A DNA stretch of 32,425 bases from Saccoglossus kowalevskii (Eukaryota; Hemichordata; Enteropneusta; Harrimaniidae). Made by a program: the position numbers and the translations under genes. The stretch is from NCBI RefSeq assembly GCF_000003605.2, contig NW_003112489.1, positions 68,196 through 100,620 on the forward strand, written 5' to 3'. The notes beneath the pieces are model-generated. The model did no database searches. It was not told the DNA's origin and saw nothing but the letters and a program-made list of their open reading frames with translations. Positions 4,216-32,425 of the stretch are shown here, piece by piece (the stretch's first letter is position 1; every line of letters starts with the position of its first letter).

Positions 4216-4600
4216 TATGCATCATTGCAGCTGCCAAGTTTACAGTACTTTCTTTGCTTAACCACAATATCCTCACCCTTGCTTTGTAAGGGCATGGAAG
4301 GTAGTAGGGAGGAAATAGGACGAATTTTAGTCCAGATTTATATATTTATTTATATATTATTTTGTTTCAAGCCTTATGGTCATTGTCTATTTTTTCTTTC
4401 AAAACGTTATCTCTTCCGCTTATTTACTCAACAAAATAGGAATGACTTCTAATTTTTAGAACTAAAAAAAAATTTTGACCAGAATTTTGTATAATCATAC
4501 GAGAAAAGAGGCAGCAGTATACAAGGCCTGTCACTGGAAATAAAATACTTGCATGAGAAGATGATGGAGTGCTTTACTGTTCCTGTAATTGTTTCATACA

Positions 4601-4760
4601 CAGTGGCGGATCCAGAGGGGGGGCCAGGGGGGATATGGCCCCTCCCAAACTCATGACGATTCATATCATCTGGATTACGCATAGCTTCTCTGCAATTTAT
4701 GCTCCGTATATCTTAAGCGAAGCTTGGACCCCCCAATACATTTTGCTGGATCCGCCACTG
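4601..4760. mobile_element. hAT-type MITE with perfect 15-bp inverted repeats and 8-bp duplication
   Basis: Left end 'cagtggcggatccag' (4601-4615) is the exact reverse complement of the right end 'ctggatccgccactg' (4746-4760). Immediately outside, the same 8 bases 'ttcataca' occur at 4593-4600 and 4761-4768. Ends starting CAG with an 8-bp target duplication are the signature of the hAT superfamily. At 160 bp the element is far too short for a transposase, so it needed one in trans. Just inside the left end is a G-rich run (4615-4631), and a C-run occurs near 4730, so the inverted similarity extends further in degenerate form. The perfect ends and target duplication suggest a comparatively young insertion. 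Confidence 0.88.
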
Positions 4761-4769
4761 TTCATACAT

Positions 4770-5400
4770 ATTTGAAAGGTCCAAGTGGGGTTTTCTACCA
4801 GATACTTTCAGATAAGCTCAGTCGATTACATGTGCGCTGATGTGATGTGATGTGATGTTTTACACAACAGTTTTGCCACCATATTCATGACAAACTGACT
4901 TTTAAATAAGTTGTGTATACAAAATATGATGGTAGGAACTTAATATTGGAATAAAATATCTTTATATTGCAAAGATCTGTGATCAGTCATGTTGTGTGAT
5001 TTTGGTGTCAATTCATCTCCATAAAACTCTGACTGCTTCCGAGCTGACCTGAATACTGATTATTCTTATTCTATGACTTTTCTTTCGTTTTAAAAACTGA
5101 GATCGCTGGTGCCTTCATCCCTTGTCTATTTAAATTTCTCTTGACCTATAATTACGGTGACTGAGATTTATATGCTTGCCCATGATTACACACATAATTA
5201 CATTACCGTGAGGAAGATATTGTAGCTAGGTGCAACTGATATTTATTTGTCTTCTATTTGCAATGTTTTGTATTCTGTAATTGCAATGTCATTTTGTTGG
5301 GTTAAAGGTCAAAAGGGCAGATCACTGATTTCATCGGTAGTATTCATTGTGACTTTATATCAAAAATAAATATTCCCCTGTATGCAAGCAATTTTTTATG
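4770..5400. other. No gene recognised; short GATGT microsatellite
   Basis: The only pattern is a short 'gatgt' tandem run at about 4838-4860. No exon-like open frame or RNA gene was seen. If the SAM-like gene at 5808-5460 continues leftward, this stretch would be part of its first intron. Confidence 0.5.
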
Positions 5401-5459
5401 TTTGAGTATTTAGTGTGCCGATCTAGATCCTTATTTAGCAAGCTCAAATCTAAGCTCAC

Positions 5460-5808
5460 CTTCTGTGATGCTGTCGTTTCTTGTTGCGCCTTGGCTTTGT
5501 GTTTGTAGATTCACTATGCCCTGAGAGTCGATTGCAAGTGATTCGTTGAGTTGTTCGTTTTTCTGTTGGTCGCTGTGTTTCCTGATGTCAGGCTTTTCAT
5601 CTCCAAAGGCCTTCACCCCCTGGACGAGTTTTCTCAGCACGCTACGCTGGCCGATCGGCAGACCGAGTGCCAAAACGTCTTGCTCCGCTAAGGTTGATAG
5701 GATTTCGGTCGATGTAATGGACTCAGTTGTTAATTTTTGGATTGTGTCTTTTGACAGCTTACAGCTTTCGCACCATTCGGTGAATGTAAAATCGGCTTGA
5801 TTCGACAT
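5460..5808 (-). CDS. First coding exon of a SAM-like domain protein (partial gene)
   Basis: The start chosen is the ATG at 5808-5806 (MSNQADF...), in a favourable 'aaaatgt' context and at the border of the domain. The frame is open back to 5973, but that extension looks like untranslated leader. Residues 1 to about 65 form a compact helical segment with the pattern FTEWCES...TIQKL...ILSTLAEQDVLALGLPIGQR, resembling SAM-type domains and especially the WCE...LGL..GQ variant I associate with multi-copy invertebrate proteins, some linked to mobile elements. Residues 66-116 are polar, rich in Q, N and S, and likely disordered. The exon ends at a strong donor, 'cagaag|gtgagc' (GT at 5459-5458), in phase 1. 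The frame then runs only a few codons into the intron before a stop. Downstream exons should lie to the left but were not found. Function unknown; a protein-interaction role is inferred from the fold only. Confidence 0.6.
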
Positions 5809-5999
5809 TTTCAACAGCAAAAAAATTGTAAAAAAAAAAAGCGAACAGGTGAATAATAACTGAATGCAATGGCTGCAACATCCGGGATACTGCCTCGATC
5901 TCGCCCAGTTGTCAAGTGTAACAGTTCCTATTGCCATTGTAACAGTTCTTGTCGGTACCCCGGGCGATAGCATCTTCGTAACTGGTAGAATATGCGTCT

Positions 6000-6700
6000 T
6001 GAAACAAGGAGTCTGAGTATAAACATCTCTTTGGCTTCATGTTAGGAAAACCTGTTTTCGCTTGCAAATTTCCCTGTATGTGTTTGTAATCACGTTAATC
6101 ACAATAATGTTATAACTTGGCCCATAATTCCATCATTGTTTTATAACACTTTTGTTGAAACAGGGGTTCAAACGACTGCAGTTAAAGGGCGGACACGGAG
6201 TGAAAAAAAAATACATAATAAAAAATCCACTTGTAATTTGTTCGGGGCAAGGGTGTGACAGCTGGTACAGGTTACAGAAAATAAAAAAGGCAATTTACGT
6301 TCAAAGTGTATAAAATGAAAGTTTCATTTACAGTAAAAAATAGATTTTAACACTTTACAGATAAAGCAAATTCCTAATTACATTTTTATAATATACTTGG
6401 AAATGGAAATTGCGTACAAACTGCGACATTTAATGTGGAAATGCCTTATACGCTTACAAAAAATAAGCTAGATTACATTTTACACCTTGTCCGTGTCTAC
6501 GAATGTATTTAAATTACATTATTACGAAAATAAAAAACAATTGATTACAGCTTACGAAAATAACCCTTGCCGACCCTCTTGTTCATGTATGTGATATATG
6601 TGGTGTACATTAATCAATAAGTCTTTATTACATTATAAATACTTACACCAGAACAATGGAAGTTCTGACAATTCAGGTACTTCTAATCAGAAACCAAATA
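6000..6700. other. No gene recognised; possible decayed inverted-repeat element
   Basis: Very AT-rich. The strings 'ggacacgg' (near 6191) and 'ccgtgtc' (near 6490) are inverted to each other, as are parts of the 'caagggt' and 'acccttg' blocks near 6248 and 6565. This might mark an old foldback transposon, but the arms are short and broken. Confidence 0.3.
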
Positions 6701-6714
6701 AGGCAAACAACTGT

Positions 6715-7150
6715 ACCCATGATTCGTTGATTTGAGAAAAGCGTTTGACAGTGTTTGGCATAATGCTTTATTTCAAAATTACTGGAGTATGGTGTGAACG
6801 ATAAAACTCATAAAACCATTAAAAACATGTACAGCGACGTCGATAAATTTAATGGCTGTTTACAACACCATTTTTATCAAACTCCGGGGTGAAGGAAGCA
6901 AAGGTGTAGTCTAAGCCCCCAACACTATTCAATATTTCTATTAATGATCTTCCTGGTATTCCAGGCTCAGTCAATCGGAAGATTAGAAATGGAAAATCCA
7001 AAGAAACAATGATTAATTTAAAACGAAAGAGCCGAAAGACCATGTCCTCAATTAAAGAAAGTATAAGATATGAACGAAGGGTAAAAATAACTACTTTTAA
7101 ACACACAAAAAATGTTGATGCATTTAAGTACTTCAATTTAAGATTGCGTT
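6715..7150 (+). pseudogene. Decayed non-LTR retrotransposon reverse transcriptase fragment
   Basis: A conceptual translation on the plus strand shows the RT palm signature FVDLRKAFDSVWH (from about 6729). After a one-base shift near 6777 comes LLEYGVNDKTHKTIKNMYS, and in another frame TLFNISINDLPGI (about 6918-6958), the degenerate form of the 'SPxLFNIFINDLPGI' block. Still further, at about 7111-7137, VDAFKYFNLRL matches the 'FKYLGLRL' block that follows the palm. These blocks occur in the order expected for non-LTR (LINE-type) RTs. At least two frameshifts and in-frame stops break it, and the catalytic YADD segment expected after INDLPGI is absent, apparently by deletion. No endonuclease or 3' tail was recognised, so this is a dead internal fragment. 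The clade cannot be assigned by eye. Confidence 0.85.
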
Positions 7151-7439
7151 TGTATATAGTTAGTCAAAGCCGAACAGAACAGCTCCCTCAATCAATTATT
7201 TGAGAATTAACATCTCTTAGACATTGATGTCTCCTGGTGACCACCACAATTCTTCGGTTTTATGACATAACAGCAGCTACATTCTTTACGAAACGGGTAC
7301 GATAGGAGAACACAGGTAAGAATGTAGTAAACGATTTGGGCCGACGACGAACAACACCTAACTTTTTCGATCATGGATGCTGACGATGTTGACGACACAT
7401 GAGCTACCCCGAGTTTAATAGAACGCAAGTTCATCAAGA

Positions 7440-7600
7440 GAATCAATCCACATCAACCAAACCATCAATCGAATCGACCCACCCGAACACCCACCCAGCT
7501 ACCCACCTAGTCAGCAAATTTGCTCACCCGAACCACCTAGAGAGCGAATTGGTCTACCAACCCATCTAGCGGATTGACTCGCCTTTATTACTGACAGTTA
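7440..7600. repeat. Low-complexity ACCCACC-rich tract
   Basis: The motifs 'acccacc', 'acccacctag' and 'caacccatctag' recur irregularly between about 7477 and 7575, giving a C-rich, G-poor strand. No repeat period holds for long and no coding sequence was seen. Meaning unclear. Confidence 0.45.
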
Positions 7601-8029
7601 AATATTTGTCGCAATGTTAATCATCTACATTTTCAGATTAGCGAATTATTTATGGCGGTATATATTACAAAATTAACATCAGCTGGAATATCTGTCATGA
7701 ATTCGAATGGAAAACTATTAAAATAGTCAAGTAAATTTTTGAAAACTAAATTAAAATTATAGAAATTTAACTGTTATTGTTCAAGTTGTTATGCACTGTG
7801 CGTACGTACGGCCGTTACTAGAAGATGGCATCAGGTTCCGCAAGTTGCTTCTCGGAATATTGAGAGGGCGCTTGTGCTCGCAACAATTTCCTTAGTAAAC
7901 CTATTCATAATTATACTGACAATCGAGATGTATCATCACTGTACAGTGAGGCAAGATTGTAATTCAACTTCCAGACACGTGACTTACTATACTATCGTTT
8001 GAGAAATATTTGGTTGCCAATCTAGAAAA

Positions 8030-8371
8030 CCCAATAGTAACATATAGCCTACATACAAAATATTAATAGTCACGTTATGGCCCAATAGTAACATATAGCC
8101 TACATACAAAATATTAATAGTCACGTTATGGCCCAATAGTAACATATAGCCTACATACAAAATATTAATAGTCACGTTATGGCCCAATAGTAACATATAG
8201 CCTACATACAAAATATTAATAGTCACGTTATGGCCCAATAGTAACATATAGCCTACATACAAAATATTAATAGTCACGTTATGGCCCAATAGTAACATAT
8301 AGCCTACATACAAAATATTAATAGTCTCGTTATGGCCCAATAGTAACATATAGCCTACATACAACAAATAT
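8030..8371. repeat. 51-bp minisatellite, six full copies plus a partial one
   Basis: Units start at 8030, 8081, 8132, 8183, 8234, 8285 and 8336, an exact 51-bp period. The first five are identical as read, the sixth has a single change ('gtcacg' to 'gtctcg'), and the seventh is cut off in its last third. Because 51 is divisible by three and the unit lacks stops in one minus-strand frame, a 126-residue open frame (8367-7987) runs through the array. It encodes a 17-residue repeat, but it has no other coding feature and is best read as a by-product. The near-identity of the units indicates recent expansion or homogenisation. If the secreted-protein gene at 9690-9183 continues leftward, the array is intronic. 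Confidence 0.92.
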
Positions 8372-8379
8372 TAGGTCAT

Positions 8380-9170
8380 CTAAGTGGGCGTAAGTTGTCG
8401 TGTCACAAGTTGTCACAGAACAGATGTTGGTAAGGACTCTAAAATCCGATAATTCATTACCCTATGGCCGTTTGTAAATGAAAAGCAAGGGCAAACCATC
8501 TAGAACAATATCTGATTCAAATATGATCCTAGTTTAGACATTTTTAATTGTTATTTCAATGTTTATTTAAATCTGTATTTAAATATATTTTTAAAAATAA
8601 GAATTAAATACATAATATAAAGCAATGATAAAAATTCAAAATTTAAAAAAAGATATCATTTTAATCAGAATAATCTGAAGAAAGAACGTCAACTCATCGA
8701 ACTAGCAATAATATAATGCAAAGGTATCATCTAATAATTATTATTGTTTTGATGAACTATATGTTATCCTTCAACAAAATATTAAACAGCGCCATCTACG
8801 ATATTTAAATAAAGTTATCAAAATAATTTAAATGTATTGGTGGATGTATAGCAGACGGTTGATGATTTAAGTCACGTGACAGACACATAAAACCTCACAC
8901 TGTGATGGTTTTCAGAAATTAAATAGGGTGACATTCCTGACTTCGAGCTGATATCCGAAACCTTAACATAAATTTGCTGGTATATTTCTGTCAAAATTGC
9001 TGTTTGTTTTTTCAAGTCTCATTCACAGTTACTACGAGGCAACAACCAGTACACATAAAATATTTGCAAGACGTGTAAGTACAAGTTTGGGAAATTATCT
9101 GTCTGCATATATTAATTAGGTCACAGGCCCTAAATAACTAGAAATATGGAATTTATGCAATATATAAAAC
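8380..9170. other. No gene recognised
   Basis: AT-rich DNA, particularly 8540-8860. No exon with domain-like content could be identified on the minus strand that would continue the coiled-coil gene whose first exon ends at 9183. Any such exon is either short, further left, or missed by eye. Confidence 0.5.
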
Positions 9171-9182
9171 CAGTTTACGCAC

Positions 9183-9690
9183 CTGTCTGATTTGTTAAGT
9201 TAATATACTCGTCAATTAATTCGTTTGCCTTCATAACTGTGTCCCTTGCTTCATTCGCCCGGAGTGACAATTCGTTGGTAATTCTGTTGTTTAATTCTTC
9301 CATTGTTTTCTCAATGTCTGCATTTGTTCGTGAGCACCTGTCTACCTTGTTTTCCATTGCGTTCATTCGCCTCCTGATATCGCTATTGCCGTTTTTCCCT
9401 GCATCGCTGCTTGTGTCATCCACATCATTTCGTTCACCGGATATCACACTGTGTGATACATCCCTCCTTTTCAGAGAAGGTTGAGAGTCTAATAACGATC
9501 GTAATTTGATATTGTCATTACTAATTACTGCATACTGAGCTTCAAGTCGTTCTATTCGACGAGTTAGTGATGCTATAATGTCAACTGCATCACGCTGTCC
9601 GTGCGCCATCCCATGCACCAAACCGACAAATGTTATAACCAGTATCGCCGTTATCATCGTCAAATTCAGTTCACTGAGCGAGAAAAGCAT
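9183..9690 (-). CDS. First coding exon of a secreted or type II membrane coiled-coil protein (partial gene)
   Basis: The frame starts at the ATG at 9690. A second Met twelve codons in (9657) precedes the hydrophobic stretch MITAILVITFVGLVHG directly and would make a more canonical signal peptide. After likely cleavage near HGMAHG, residues about 35-70 (IASLTRRIERLEAQ...) and 105-165 (RRRMNAMENKV, IEKTMEELNNRI, ANELIDEYINL) have heptad-like spacing and are predicted coiled coils, separated by a polar Ser/Asp-rich linker. There are possible N-glycosylation sites near the end (NLT, NQT). The exon closes with the donor 'cagacag|gtgcgt' (GT at 9182-9181) in phase 1, the usual phase for extracellular modules. 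This architecture commonly precedes a C1q, fibrinogen-like, lectin or collagen module in invertebrates, but no such exon was found, so the family remains open. Confidence 0.7.
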
Positions 9691-9786
9691 AGTTAACGGT
9701 GTTTAGAACAAGATAAAATTGGGTTCGCCTAGTCAGCAATGGTAAAGGTCAGTTAACATTGGCTAAGCTCAGTTGGAACACTTGGA

Positions 9787-19457: not shown

Positions 19458-19664
19458 TTATGGACCATTGTTGATCTTTTCGTCCAGTTTCTTCTTAATA
19501 TTTTCAAAACGATCTTCACCCAGGTAGTCAATCTGTCCCTGTTCCCACTGAAATTGACGAGTACGACTGTCAACAGGATGTGCTGGTACCCCAGGCTCTG
19601 TAGGACTACTGGGAGGTGTTGCTGTGCTCAGCAACTTCAGCTTACCCAACTCACTGCTCATAGT
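19458..19664 (-). CDS. GYG: Glycogenin terminal exon: glycogen-synthase-binding C-terminus
   Basis: The intron ends 'tttctgtag' (AG at 19666-19665). The exon reads in phase 0 from ACT ATG AGC, giving TMSSELGKLKLL..., and ends at TAA (19460-19458), 68 residues. The Met inside it is internal, not a start. A short Pro/Ser/Thr linker (about residues 13-34) leads to WEQGQIDYLGEDRF and ENIKKKLDE, which closely match the conserved C-terminal motif of animal glycogenins (human: [22 protein letters not shown]). In the family this peptide docks onto glycogen synthase and brings the priming glucan to the elongating enzyme. The exon follows the long linker exon 27623-26436 after a 6.8-kb intron with matching phase. 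The 3' UTR continues leftward. Confidence 0.95.
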   Translation of the reverse strand, partial: TMSSELGKLKLLSTATPPSSPTEPGVPAHPVDSRTRQFQWEQGQIDYLGEDRFENIKKKLDEKINNGP

Positions 19665-23759: not shown

Positions 23760-24290
23760 TTCTAATAGAGCAAATGTGGTAGTGCTATGTGTGGACTGTG
23801 TATTCTTATATATGACCTGTTCTATGTACTAACTGCGTGGTATATACGTTGACAATGTGTTACTATATGTGAACTGTATTGCTATACGTAGATTACATGT
23901 ACATATTGTTATACGTGGCCTGTATATTGCTGTTATATATATGGACACTTGCCATTTACGAATAGTTAATTGCTATATGTGGATTTTGCAATTTTATACA
24001 TAGGTGTACATATTTATAGGTGTATGTGGACTATATCGGTGTATATAGACTGTATGTAGAATATATAGACTGTATGTAGAATATATAGACTGTATGTAGA
24101 ATACATCGCTGTATGTAGAATATATCGCTGTATGTAGAATATATCGCTGTATGTAGAATATATCGCTGTATGTAGAATACATCACTGTATGTAGAATACA
24201 TCACTGTATGTAGACTGTATCGCTGTATGTGTACTATATTGCTGTATGTAGACTGTATCGCTGTATGTAGAATATATACTAGCCGCTGTA
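23760..24290. repeat. 19-bp minisatellite, part 2 (diverged, expanded)
   Basis: From about 24030 units such as 'gtatgtagaatatatcgct' follow at about 19 bp with variants ('gactgtatcgct', 'gaatacatcact'). Between 23770 and 24030 the same theme persists in decayed form ('tgtggactgt', 'gctatacgtagatt'). Unit length and the 'tagactgtat' core tie it to the array at 23505-23590. The open frame at 24185-23994 (minus) is a by-product of the repeat. Confidence 0.8.
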
Positions 24291-26435: not shown

Positions 26436-27623
26436 TTCTGTCTCTTCAGGTACTAATGGTTTCACAGGCTCGTCCATTTTCCTCAGAACAGTCTGAACTT
26501 CATGGGTTGTTAACTCCTCTTCCAGTAGCTCTTTTACAAATAACTTTCTCATTTCCATCTCCTCCTGCTCTTTCTTAATTCGATTTGCCTTCTCCTGTCT
26601 TATTTCAAGCAATGATTTGAATAGATCTTTGGACAATTCTTGGATATGTACATCTGTAGTTGTATCATCTATTTCTTCCTCACTTATTACATGTAATTTG
26701 TCATTAATTATCTTAGCTAAATCTATAATACGTTTTTGTTCAGACAATACATCTGTTTTCCTAGTCTTTTTCATGCGTTCATCTAACTTCACATTAATAT
26801 ATTTTGCTAATTGTTCCAAACGTTTTAGAACATACGTATTTTCTCTTTTTTTATCTTCACCTTTCCCACTGTCCGACTCCATTTTCCACATTGCTTCACC
26901 TAATCTTTTATGAATGTATTCTGCTAAGTCGTTGACACGCTTTTCTTCCACACTCAATTCGCGATGTTTATGGCATTCCACTAACGACTCATCACGCTGT
27001 TCAACCATACCCCATAATTCAGATATTTCACCAGAGTATTCCTCGAAAGGCTCACCTCTACTTATTTCCGAAGGTTCTCCAAGCTTCCTGTGAACATATG
27101 CAGCTAATTCTTCTACTCGTCTTTCTTCTGATGTCAATTCATGAAAATCCTTGCTCTCATCCGACAGCTCAACACCTGGTTTGACTATACCCCATATTTC
27201 CGTTAATTTACCACCATCACCCTCAAACTTCAAGAGTTTAACAGATCTACTCATTTCTTTTGATTCATCAAGCTTCTTATGAACATATGCAGCTAATTCT
27301 TCTACTCGTTTTTCTTCTTCTGTAAGTTCAGGATATTCAGCCTCATCAGGTTCAGGCACCTTACTTTCATGAGCATCTGTTGATTTGTTTTCATCTATCA
27401 TTCTAATTTCCCTGTGCACATATTCTGCTGAATGTTCTGGCACTGAAGGAGGGTGAGTGCACAAATCTGGATATAATTGTTCTCGCATTGGTGGGAAAGA
27501 TGATTCTGCTGGTTTAGAAGCTAATTCGGCATCTGGTTTAGAAGCTGGCCCAGAAGTTGGTTCAGCTGGTTTATCTATTTGACTCTCTCCTTCATCACTT
27601 GCATAGAGAGAACGGTCAGGTTC
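26436..27623 (-). CDS. GYG: Glycogenin linker exon with repeated amphipathic-helix modules (396 residues)
   Basis: Acceptor 'tatctag|gaacct' (AG at 27625-27624) and donor 'agaa|gtaagt' (GT at 26435-26434) define a 1188-bp exon that is phase 0 at both ends and open throughout. It starts EPDRSLYASDEGES, with a Pro/Ser/Ala-rich first 45 residues, then becomes strongly acidic and helical. A module of the form [E]KRVEELAAYVHKKL recurs at exon residues about 107-118, 170-181 and 230-241 (spacing 63 and 60), with looser forms at 269-280 (LEQLAKYINVKL) and 299-310 (IIDLAKIINDKL). LTEIWGIV and ISELWGMV follow the first two copies, giving a unit of about 60 residues. The rest (about 310-396) is a charged helix. 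Vertebrate glycogenin-1 has a much shorter linker here. Role unknown: a spacer, oligomerisation or scaffold function is only inference. Confidence 0.9.
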
Positions 27624-28999: not shown

Positions 29000-30900
29000 T
29001 AGTCTCCAGGAGCCATAGTTAGCTGGATACATGTGCCTACCTTTGACATGGCAAGTGACCCAGATCTGCATGTGGTGGCAGAAGTGTCATAACATGCTCC
29101 CTGCTAAACCAAGAGCGAGATTCAAAAGTGGGATGTGTATGGAGGTGGACAGTTCCCAGCAAATGATAAAGCTTGCAACTAACTGCAGCTTCTGGATGAT
29201 ACCAAGCTTAATAAGAACAGAATGTTGGATAATATGGCTCATAAAGCTTGCAACTAACTGCAGCTTCTGGATGATACCAAGCTTAATAAGAACAGAATGT
29301 TGGATAATATGGCTCATAAAGCTTGCAACAAACTGCAGCTTCTGGATGATACCAAGCTTAATAAGAACAGAATGTTGGATAATATAGAGGTTGCAGAAGA
29401 AATGCCAATACTGAAGATAAATAACAAGAAAACTTTAAAGATGAGTTGATCCATGAATGTGTTGTCTTCTGTTATGGTCCATCCACACAGATTGGCAGTA
29501 CATATTCTCCCACCATAAGAGGAAGATTTGTGATCTGAGTTAGCAGTATGATACAAACTGGGTATAAAGGAATAGAAAAGATGTGTTTGGTAATATACCG
29601 AGTGGCTCTGGTATAACCAGACAATCTGAAAAGCTATGTGCCAATATGAGCTTCAAGATTGAGAAAAACCTTGTGTCACATACATATTACTGTGAGGAAT
29701 CGTCAGCAGCAAGTAGCAGCTACAACAGAGTCTCTACTGCAAGGTTGCCAAGAAGCATTAACTTTGTCCCTCTCTCTTTGCTAAGGTAGGCGACAGCAAT
29801 GAAAATGACACACCTTGAGGACACTGTTTGGCAAAAACTGTTGTAGTGCTTTCAGCTCCTAGTTGAGGTGTTTGGATAACTGTGTGTGAAAGTGTGTTAG
29901 CAGATCCATCATATGCACCCCATCCCTCAATTGACACATCTGTCAAGTGATGACAGCACCAGACCCCATCCAACTTTAAAACATGCATACTAATGTTGAA
30001 TGTGCATTCCCTGATCTTGTCACTGAGTCAAAAATATGCTTCACACATGTCCATGCCAAGATTTCTCCTCATTACAAACCACAGTGATTGCAGGATGTCA
30101 TTTGGTACTGAGGATGTTCAGAAAGGATCTCCTTTGATGGATGATGGAGAAGCCAGTCATATACACAAATGTGTGTACCGGTAAAGTTTACTTTGGTAAG
30201 TAGGAAAACTACTACCGCATTTCTCATAAATACCAAATGGAAATACTACTCTGAATTGGTATGCAATTTCCTCTACCAGAAACCATGGAAAAGGTTGGCT
30301 ATAGTTTATTAGGTATGTGGAGAATGCATCCTTCAGAGGTGCCAAATCTGCCACTGGCCTCCACCCAAAAGATTCGATAGAACCCAGCGAACTGTCCACA
30401 ACAAAGTCACAGGACCTGGAGCGACCGACAGTGAATGCTAGAGTCTGTAAAGAATTACGGGATGCAAACTAGCTGTTGGTTCTGAACATCAGGACAGCAA
30501 ACCATAGTGTTGAATATTGGCCAAACTAAATGAACAGTCTCATTCAAAGTATCAAAAGTACAAAGACCTACAAAGACCAACAACCCACAAAACCCAGAGT
30601 TACCTTACATGAAAACTGAGTGTGCACCATGTCCTCCAGACTTGTCCTATCAGGTCAAACATCATGGCAGAAATCAATGGTGAAGCAACAGATTTTGCAA
30701 TGTTCTTTTTCACAAAGAGATGCAATATTCTCCTCAATCTGGCAAATGGTGAACTAAAAATTGTCACTTGCATACACATTAATTTTATAGCTGAGTACCC
30801 TTGGCACTAAATTTGACAAGTATGGTACTGCCACACAATGTAGCCAACCGGAGTTTGCACACATGCCCGACCAAAGCAAAGACTTCCTTGACAGAATACC
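29000..30900. pseudogene. Unidentified decayed coding-like tract
   Basis: This part of the intron is less AT-rich than its surroundings and has long stop-poor runs in several frames. Examples on the plus strand include MASDPDLHVVAEVS near 29047 and PDQSKDFLDRIPGITAIL near 30864. On the minus strand 30399-30157 gives SFGWRPVADLAPLKDAF and 29988-29758 gives GWGAYDGSANT. No frame stays open for long and no family was recognised. It may be an inactivated mobile element or processed pseudogene inserted in the intron. Both strand and identity are uncertain. Confidence 0.3.
29166..29385. repeat. 75-bp tandem repeat, three copies
   Basis: Units start at 29166, 29241 and 29316 ('ataaagcttgcaact...'). 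Only one base differs as read in the third ('gcaacaaac' for 'gcaactaac'), and the third unit stops five bases short. As 75 is divisible by three, a plus-strand frame passes through all copies. Confidence 0.93.
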
Positions 30901-31383: not shown

Positions 31384-31579
31384 CTGAGCAGTCTGAGCGG
31401 CCTCCAGCTTTGGTTTGACCCTGGCAACGAATATATCCCACCATGCCTGGATGAATGTGAGCTCATGATGAGAGCTCATGCTTTCATGAGGCAGAACCAT
31501 ACCACTGCTTGTATCATAAGTAAACTGCCATGGTTTGGCTATGCCAATGAAATGCACCACTTTCACTTGATCACCATAT
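31384..31579 (-). CDS. GYG: Glycogenin exon: end of the GT8 catalytic domain
   Basis: Acceptor 'tcattag|atatgg' (AG at 31581-31580) and donor 'gctcag|gtacgt' (GT at 31383-31382) give 196 bp, entering in phase 2 and leaving in phase 0. The first base completes an Arg codon begun in the previous exon. The product YGDQVKVVHFIGIAKPW... corresponds to the FGA-KVVHFLG-KPW block of glycogenin. In the family, the His of VHF/IG ligates Mn2+ together with the DxD motif, which here would be encoded outside the window. HHELTFIQAWWDIFVARVKP follows, matching the WWxIF closing helix of the domain. The exon ends PKLEAAQTAQ, just where human GYG1 leaves its catalytic core. The next exon is the giant linker. 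Confidence 0.96.
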
Positions 31580-32231: not shown

Positions 32232-32358
32232 CTGACAAATGCTGGTAAATAACTGTATGCTCTAGATGAAGTCATGTTATAAATAAATGGCAAATGCCTT
32301 GAAATGTCCTTAGTTGCCCAATCACTGAAATAGGTGTTGAGAAGCCCTTGGTCACCAC
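32232..32358 (-). CDS. GYG: Glycogenin exon with the autoglucosylation tyrosine
   Basis: Acceptor 'atttctag|gtggtgac' (AG at 32360-32359) and donor 'tgtcag|gtaact' (GT at 32231-32230) enclose 127 bp, entering in phase 1 and leaving in phase 2. The product, with the split first Gly, reads [29 protein letters not shown], then [13 protein letters not shown]. It matches human glycogenin-1 GGDQGILNTFFSSWAT...LPFIYNLSS...YSYLPAF almost residue for residue. The Tyr of 'AYSYLPAF' (codon 32257-32255) is the position that receives the first glucose in the family (Tyr195 of human GYG1). The Asp of GGDQG is a conserved active-site residue. The preceding exons, carrying the nucleotide-binding fold and the DxD motif, lie beyond the right edge, so the gene is 5'-truncated by the window. 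Confidence 0.97.
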
Positions 32359-32425
32359 CTAGAAATAATATAAAATCAATCATGACTGCATGTACAAATT
32401 GATCATCAAAACTGCGCTATATGAC

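Follow-up and report, generated by a model that had tools for sequence, protein, structure and literature searches.

A glycogenin gene of Saccoglossus kowalevskii with a long, internally repeated, acidic linker exon

Why should a glycogenin gene hold an exon of 396 codons between its catalytic domain and its glycogen-synthase-binding end, and why should that exon be internally repeated? I analysed a stretch of 32,425 nucleotides of the hemichordate Saccoglossus kowalevskii (the window; G000:C660:68196-100620), and searched the 572-Mb assembly of 4830 contigs. Splice borders and reading frame revealed that a glycogenin gene runs on the minus strand of the window, which carries its 3′ half, namely exons A, B, C, and D. 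The same contig carries exons 2-4 further upstream in the gene (L002). Exon 1 was not found, and the joined frame starts at exon 2. Exon A (32232..32358, minus strand; matched in the genome search at C660:100426-100560) reads (G)...AYSYLPAFV(R) and includes candidate acceptor tyrosines. Exon B (31384..31579, minus strand) encodes the end of the GT8 domain and ends in phase 0, as supported by a PDB match and the splice borders. Exon C (26436..27623, minus strand; 1188 nt, phase 0/0) is the linker exon. The terminal exon D (19458..19664, minus strand, stop included) encodes a canonical glycogen-synthase-binding C-terminus, WEQGQIDYLGEDRFENIKKKLDEK. Every internal exon border used in the model has AG/GT. 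The joined frame of exons 2, 3, 4, A, B, C, and D has one stop codon, the terminal one, and encodes, exon 1 left out, 731 amino acids with exon C or 335 without it.

The end of exon 4 has a feature of its own. At L002:1835-2029 and window positions 32383-32425, an in-frame tandem repeat with a period of 39 bp includes the 3′ end of this exon and its splice donor. Of the four readable units, three have the exon end followed by GGTAAGT and one has GGTCAGT; the array continues into a run of N. Immediately ahead of the exon A acceptor is a diverged unit, 74-79% similar to the others. Intron 4 may be built of exon-end copies, with several in-frame donors.

Is the gene truly a glycogenin? When exons B and D were joined and compared with glycogenin-1 in the PDB, the match had E=3e-22 and covered residues 2-128 of the 134-residue query, reaching the C-terminus. 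Searched alone, the end of exon D hits chains of rabbit, worm, and human (GYG1 and GYG2) with E=1.2e-7 to 7.1e-4, and is recognisable as the C-terminal glycogen-synthase-binding peptide. The worm match to the C. elegans GYG-1 C-terminal peptide (PDB 4qlb_G, E=1.3e-4) involves a 36-residue peptide chain, and the comparison covers the exon D end. The joined exons also read ...CVFMDADALVLQNIDDLF..., which has a DAD motif of the DxD type. The Pfam GT8 model matched the exon 3 region (E=0.002) and exon B (E=0.0072), each weakly alone and under the curated cut-off. The exon 2 region and exon A gave no GT8 match when searched alone, and the genome scan with this model did not list the glycogenin locus. 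The AYSYLPAF of exon A is an acceptor tyrosine segment, which I take to be the Y195 region of GYG1. Judged from its sequence, the gene is a glycogenin, as the sequence-only reading had proposed.

That reading had also put the linker exon between the catalytic exons (border at 31384) and the terminal exon (border at 19664). The coordinates and splice borders proved exact, with the acceptor ...TTATCTAG/GAACCT before 27623 and the donor GACAGAA/GTAAGT after 26436 (the slash marks the border), and the joined frame is open through all 396 codons. The codon-usage score per codon is +0.34 in frame and -0.61 in each of the two other frames; since the training set consisted of the other exons of the glycogenin gene and one acidic open frame of L003, this score is somewhat biased towards the acidic exon C. 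Could exon C instead be part of a different gene on this strand, such as a precursor of peptides whose repeats have dibasic flanks, and never be spliced to glycogenin? KR, RR, and KK pairs do flank the repeat copies described below, with acidic stretches between them. On the other hand, the phase 0/0 of exon C fits exons B and D, though such a fit is fairly often expected by chance alone, and the amidation site G[KR][KR] is absent from the linker. A crude same-strand scan for phase-0 signal-peptide-like exons, covering the introns from exon B to exon D, gave zero between B and C, three downstream between C and D, and zero in either plus-strand control. With stricter requirements (GTRAG donor, 45-900 nt), the search gave a single low-scoring phase-0/0 exon between B and C and none between C and D. 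I consider an origin of exon C in another gene improbable. Under the same requirements, no credible phase-0/0 candidate for an extra exon among B, C, and D was found.

There is probably at least one further gene nearby. Upstream, on the same strand, L003:2616-8510 (minus strand) is a single open frame of 1965 codons that starts with an N-terminal hydrophobic stretch, MAGFLYYVSCVVFVAVIWAYW, followed by acidic, internally repetitive sequence; it has no Pfam match at E up to 0.1. In the window, 4452-9702 (minus strand) has open frames that look coding by eye (5434-6036 and 9178-9702), suggesting one or more further genes, and none of them has a Pfam match over the cut-off. The window also has minisatellites at 8030-8373 (period 51), 24050-24277 (period 19), and 29166-29385 (period 75).

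What does exon C encode? All parts given here are on the minus strand. The N-terminal part of the linker (27441..27623, residues 1-61) is rich in P, S, and E and is probably disordered. It is followed by a degenerate helix stub, PEHSAEYVHREI (27405..27440, residues 62-73), with a weak profile match of 6.6 bits on residues 66-71. Then come three clear copies of a putative helix, found by both self-alignment and helix pattern: copy 1 (27267..27329, residues 99-119, core at 107), copy 2 (27078..27140, residues 162-182, core at 170), and copy 3 (26898..26960, residues 222-242, core at 230). A WG motif follows copies 1 and 2 only, as noted in the sequence-only reading: KLTEIWGIV (27183..27209) after the former and EISELWGMV (27003..27029) after the latter. 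Copy 4 (26778..26825, residues 267-282, core at 269) is diverged and was found by profile, at 13.1 bits. Copy 5 (26688..26735, residues 297-312, core at 299) is also diverged; it matches the helix pattern, with a profile score of only 2.4 bits. Copy 6 (26604..26645, residues 327-340, core at 327) is the loosest and is a pattern match only. A long charged stretch (26478..26603, residues 341-382) comes last and is probably helical. The cores are spaced by 63, 60, 39, 30, and 28 residues. Thus, the 60-63 residue spacing that had been claimed for the first three copies is borne out, and the regular intervals are limited to the first two.

The claim of internal repetition, with three clear and two looser copies, stood up to shuffling. 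The best ungapped self-alignments of the linker, at offsets 63 and 60, score 116 and 114, while 200 shuffles gave a mean of 39.8 and a maximum of 61. The profile of copies 1-3 finds copy 4 with its 13.1 bits, and the best domain in 1000 shuffles of the C-terminal part reached 5.7; copy 6 is absent from the domains listed for this profile. The self-alignment scores linking copy 5 to the others, 37-41, equal the shuffle mean. The helix pattern occurs six times in the linker and never more than once in any of 5000 composition-preserving shuffles. Since this pattern was devised after inspecting the copies, the self-alignment and profile tests weigh more.

The copies are putative amphipathic helices. 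In 18-residue windows starting at residues 105, 168, 228, and 297 (copies 1, 2, 3, and 5), the hydrophobic moment is 0.42, 0.55, 0.57, and 0.47, compared with a shuffled mean of 0.22 and a 95th percentile of 0.42; copy 1 is barely at that percentile, and windows with an earlier start give 0.41, 0.40, and 0.39 for copies 1, 3, and 5. Copy 4 has 0.36 (0.47 at the strand angle, 170 degrees) and the copy 6 region 0.26, both under the 95th percentile.

What might such helices bind? The sequence-only reading suggested that the linker reaches several synthase molecules, and the repeats would then be extra, degenerate versions of the C-terminal synthase-binding helix, with several synthases recruited per glycogenin. 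By eye the hydrophobic spacing is alike: the repeats have V/L/V/L at positions 0, 3, 7, and 11, and RFENIKKKLDEKI has F/I/L/I. The best ungapped match of the linker to its own C-terminus nevertheless scores 27, a value that 909 of 2000 shuffles of the linker and 920 of 2000 of the query also attain; for the rabbit peptide, the score is 22 and the corresponding counts are 1790 and 1868 of 2000. Because the helices resemble the synthase-binding peptide at chance level, the suggestion has no sequence support, and such docking seems a poor prospect. Still less probable, to the point of being very hard to credit, is that they are AKAP-like helices that anchor PKA and take the kinase to the glycogen particle. 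The hydrophobic-x-x-L-A-x-x-hydrophobic pattern of the copies resembles that of AKAP helices. Against this, a strict RII-binding pattern has no hits in the linker (a weak test, as shuffles average 0.34), and copies 1-5 have H or N at core position 8.

Other sources of the repeats were considered and rejected. For a likeness to the last GT8 helix (HELT...KL), shuffling reached the score in 425 of 1000 cases for the linker and 474 of 1000 for the query; for the linker against the whole GT8 part, the counts were 281 and 302 of 1000. The best Pfam hit of the linker is DUF7603 (E=0.0024, 19.1 bits), which does not reach the cut-off of 27; the best NCBIfam hit has 15 bits and does not reach the cut-off of 388; and the best match among PDB sequences, at E=0.06, is not convincing. 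Among viral contigs, 18 stretches fit the pattern, and none is a relative.

Is the repetition a selected module, as had been proposed, or does only length matter? If only length matters, the linker would be an acidic spacer, mostly disordered or a single helix, that was duplicated in tandem and has drifted. Its composition agrees with this (18.2% E; 97 acidic and 63 basic residues), and glycogenin linkers vary in sequence and length, according to PMC9188544. Copies were then compared for synonymous and nonsynonymous differences. A significant excess of synonymous differences was found for cores 2 and 3 (pS 0.86, pN 0.25, Fisher p 5.6e-5), cores 1 and 3 (pS 0.84, pN 0.23, p 2.1e-4), and the longer unit 133-183/193-243 (pS 0.68, pN 0.31, p 2.4e-4), a contrast that is inflated, since the cores were chosen for protein likeness. 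Synonymous sites are nearly saturated between copies 2 and 3 and between copies 1 and 3. No significant excess was found for cores 1 and 2, 1 and 4, 2 and 4, and 3 and 5 (p 0.54, 0.26, 0.18, and 0.081), nor for the unit 93-140/156-203 (pS 0.33, pN 0.34, p 0.64). For copies 3 and 4 (dS 0.75, dN 0.66) and copies 4 and 5 (dS 0.58, dN 0.56), the rates were counted outside the Fisher test. Thus, three of the eight comparisons tested, which overlap one another, support a selected module, namely those of copies 1 and 2 with copy 3 and that of one longer unit; the other five do not and would suit a spacer under no constraint but length. What speaks against such a spacer is this synonymous excess, together with the WG motif retained in two units and the six pattern copies that no shuffle approached. 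I consider it unlikely, while being the strongest competitor. Copies 1 and 2, which share 93 nt at 81% identity, may have been recently duplicated or converted.

How many glycogenin genes are there? The glycogenin protein gave six matches in the genome, all of them exons of this locus (seven candidates scored, E up to 0.1). The Pfam GT8 model gave five matches elsewhere, on three contigs (C2502, C1420, and C2561), and these were rejected as glycogenins, as tblastn detected no kinship to this gene (best E 6.8). Thus, one glycogenin gene was detected. The Pfam Glycogen_syn model matched four places in a single locus, G000:C355 (13 candidates scored). The linker module gave one match, exon C itself, both at E up to 0.001 (20 candidates scored) and at E up to 10 (19 scored). 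The linker as a genomic repeat family was rejected, since further copies were not found in the genome.

Another contig of the assembly, G000:C4830 (L015-L016; 17,037 bases), is mitochondrial. By eye, one strand reads cox3-nd3-nd4L-nd4-nd5-cob and the other carries cox1 and nd6; cox2 and nd1 are on the strand opposite to cox1. Close to atp8 (identified by eye), the end of the contig has a 191-base tandem repeat in four copies. Across five genes, codon counts gave no AGG and four AGA. These features look deuterostome-like.

The linker can be set beside known systems. Glycogenin-1 (GYG1; PDB 1ll2, 7zbn, 7q0b) shares the GT8 domain, the acceptor-tyrosine segment, and the C-terminal synthase-binding peptide. 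Its whole PDB chains, however, have 333 (7zbn) and 350 (7q0b) amino acids, while here the linker exon alone has 396 and is internally repeated. The oyster reportedly has glycogenin isoforms, CgGN alpha, beta, and gamma, an invertebrate glycogenin with alternative exon regions; these alternative exons could hold the same module. Exon C may be common among related animals. Glycogenin-2 (GYG2; PDB 8z0a, 501 amino acids) is likewise a longer glycogenin and, in PMC12267440, is tied to alpha-particle assembly. In contrast, GYG2 is a separate gene in human, and its chain is absent from the six PDB matches of the linker exon (E up to 5), so that no sequence kinship was detected. Giant ankyrins offer a precedent for one unusually long exon altering the role of a protein, although they are unrelated proteins whose giant forms are reported across major bilaterian phyla (PMC5135030). 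Among the open-licence matches listed, judged by title and abstract opening, no paper is about a repeated glycogenin linker, which is no proof of absence in print.

The literature on glycogen particles bears on what a long linker may do. Linker length governs particle size in vitro, according to PMC9188544, which cites other work. PMC12267440 reports that, in double-knockout cells expressing GYG1, addition of GYG2 brings alpha particles back, and that excess GYG2 leads to smaller particles. A chimera with the GYG2 linker and the GYG2 synthase-binding domain mostly gave compact round particles like those of GYG1, and at high expression alpha particles were also seen. The same paper states that the GYG2 linker may influence particle size. 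A review (PMC8116748) gives the proposal that glycogenin is the glue of alpha particles, and reports that alpha particles still form in glycogenin-deficient animals.

The amphipathicity of the copies and this literature on linkers and particles lead me to favour a multivalent, probably optional, interaction spacer. Exon C would be a skippable cassette whose repeated helices serve interaction; it would determine how far glycogenin reaches and might also link particles, a reading on which my judgement is evenly balanced. The cassette is in frame and phase-symmetric within the single detected gene. Its inclusion would separate the catalytic domain from the synthase-binding peptide by about 400 residues, and skipping it would give a glycogenin of the usual size. 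It may have grown as a unit of some 60 residues (an amphipathic helix and a WG segment) was duplicated, with shorter copies added later. The helices would most likely be docking or self-association elements, and self-association is my first guess. The long form would then act as a multivalent spacer, giving the tethered synthase a wider reach and able to hold glycogenin molecules or particles together, and alternative inclusion of exon C could affect particle size. A bolder version, which I find doubtful, is that this single gene covers the roles of the vertebrate GYG1 and GYG2. Leaving out exon C would yield a short initiator (335 amino acids plus exon 1); retaining it would yield a form of 731 amino acids plus exon 1, whose helices, through self-association or by docking a partner, would glue small glycogen particles together to make larger ones.

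How the size of glycogen particles is controlled, and how small particles are joined into large ones, is an open question in which glycogenin and its linker are suspected. Here, a countable array of one putative helix lies at one detected locus, perhaps under a one-exon switch, and would make linker length and helix number separately testable.
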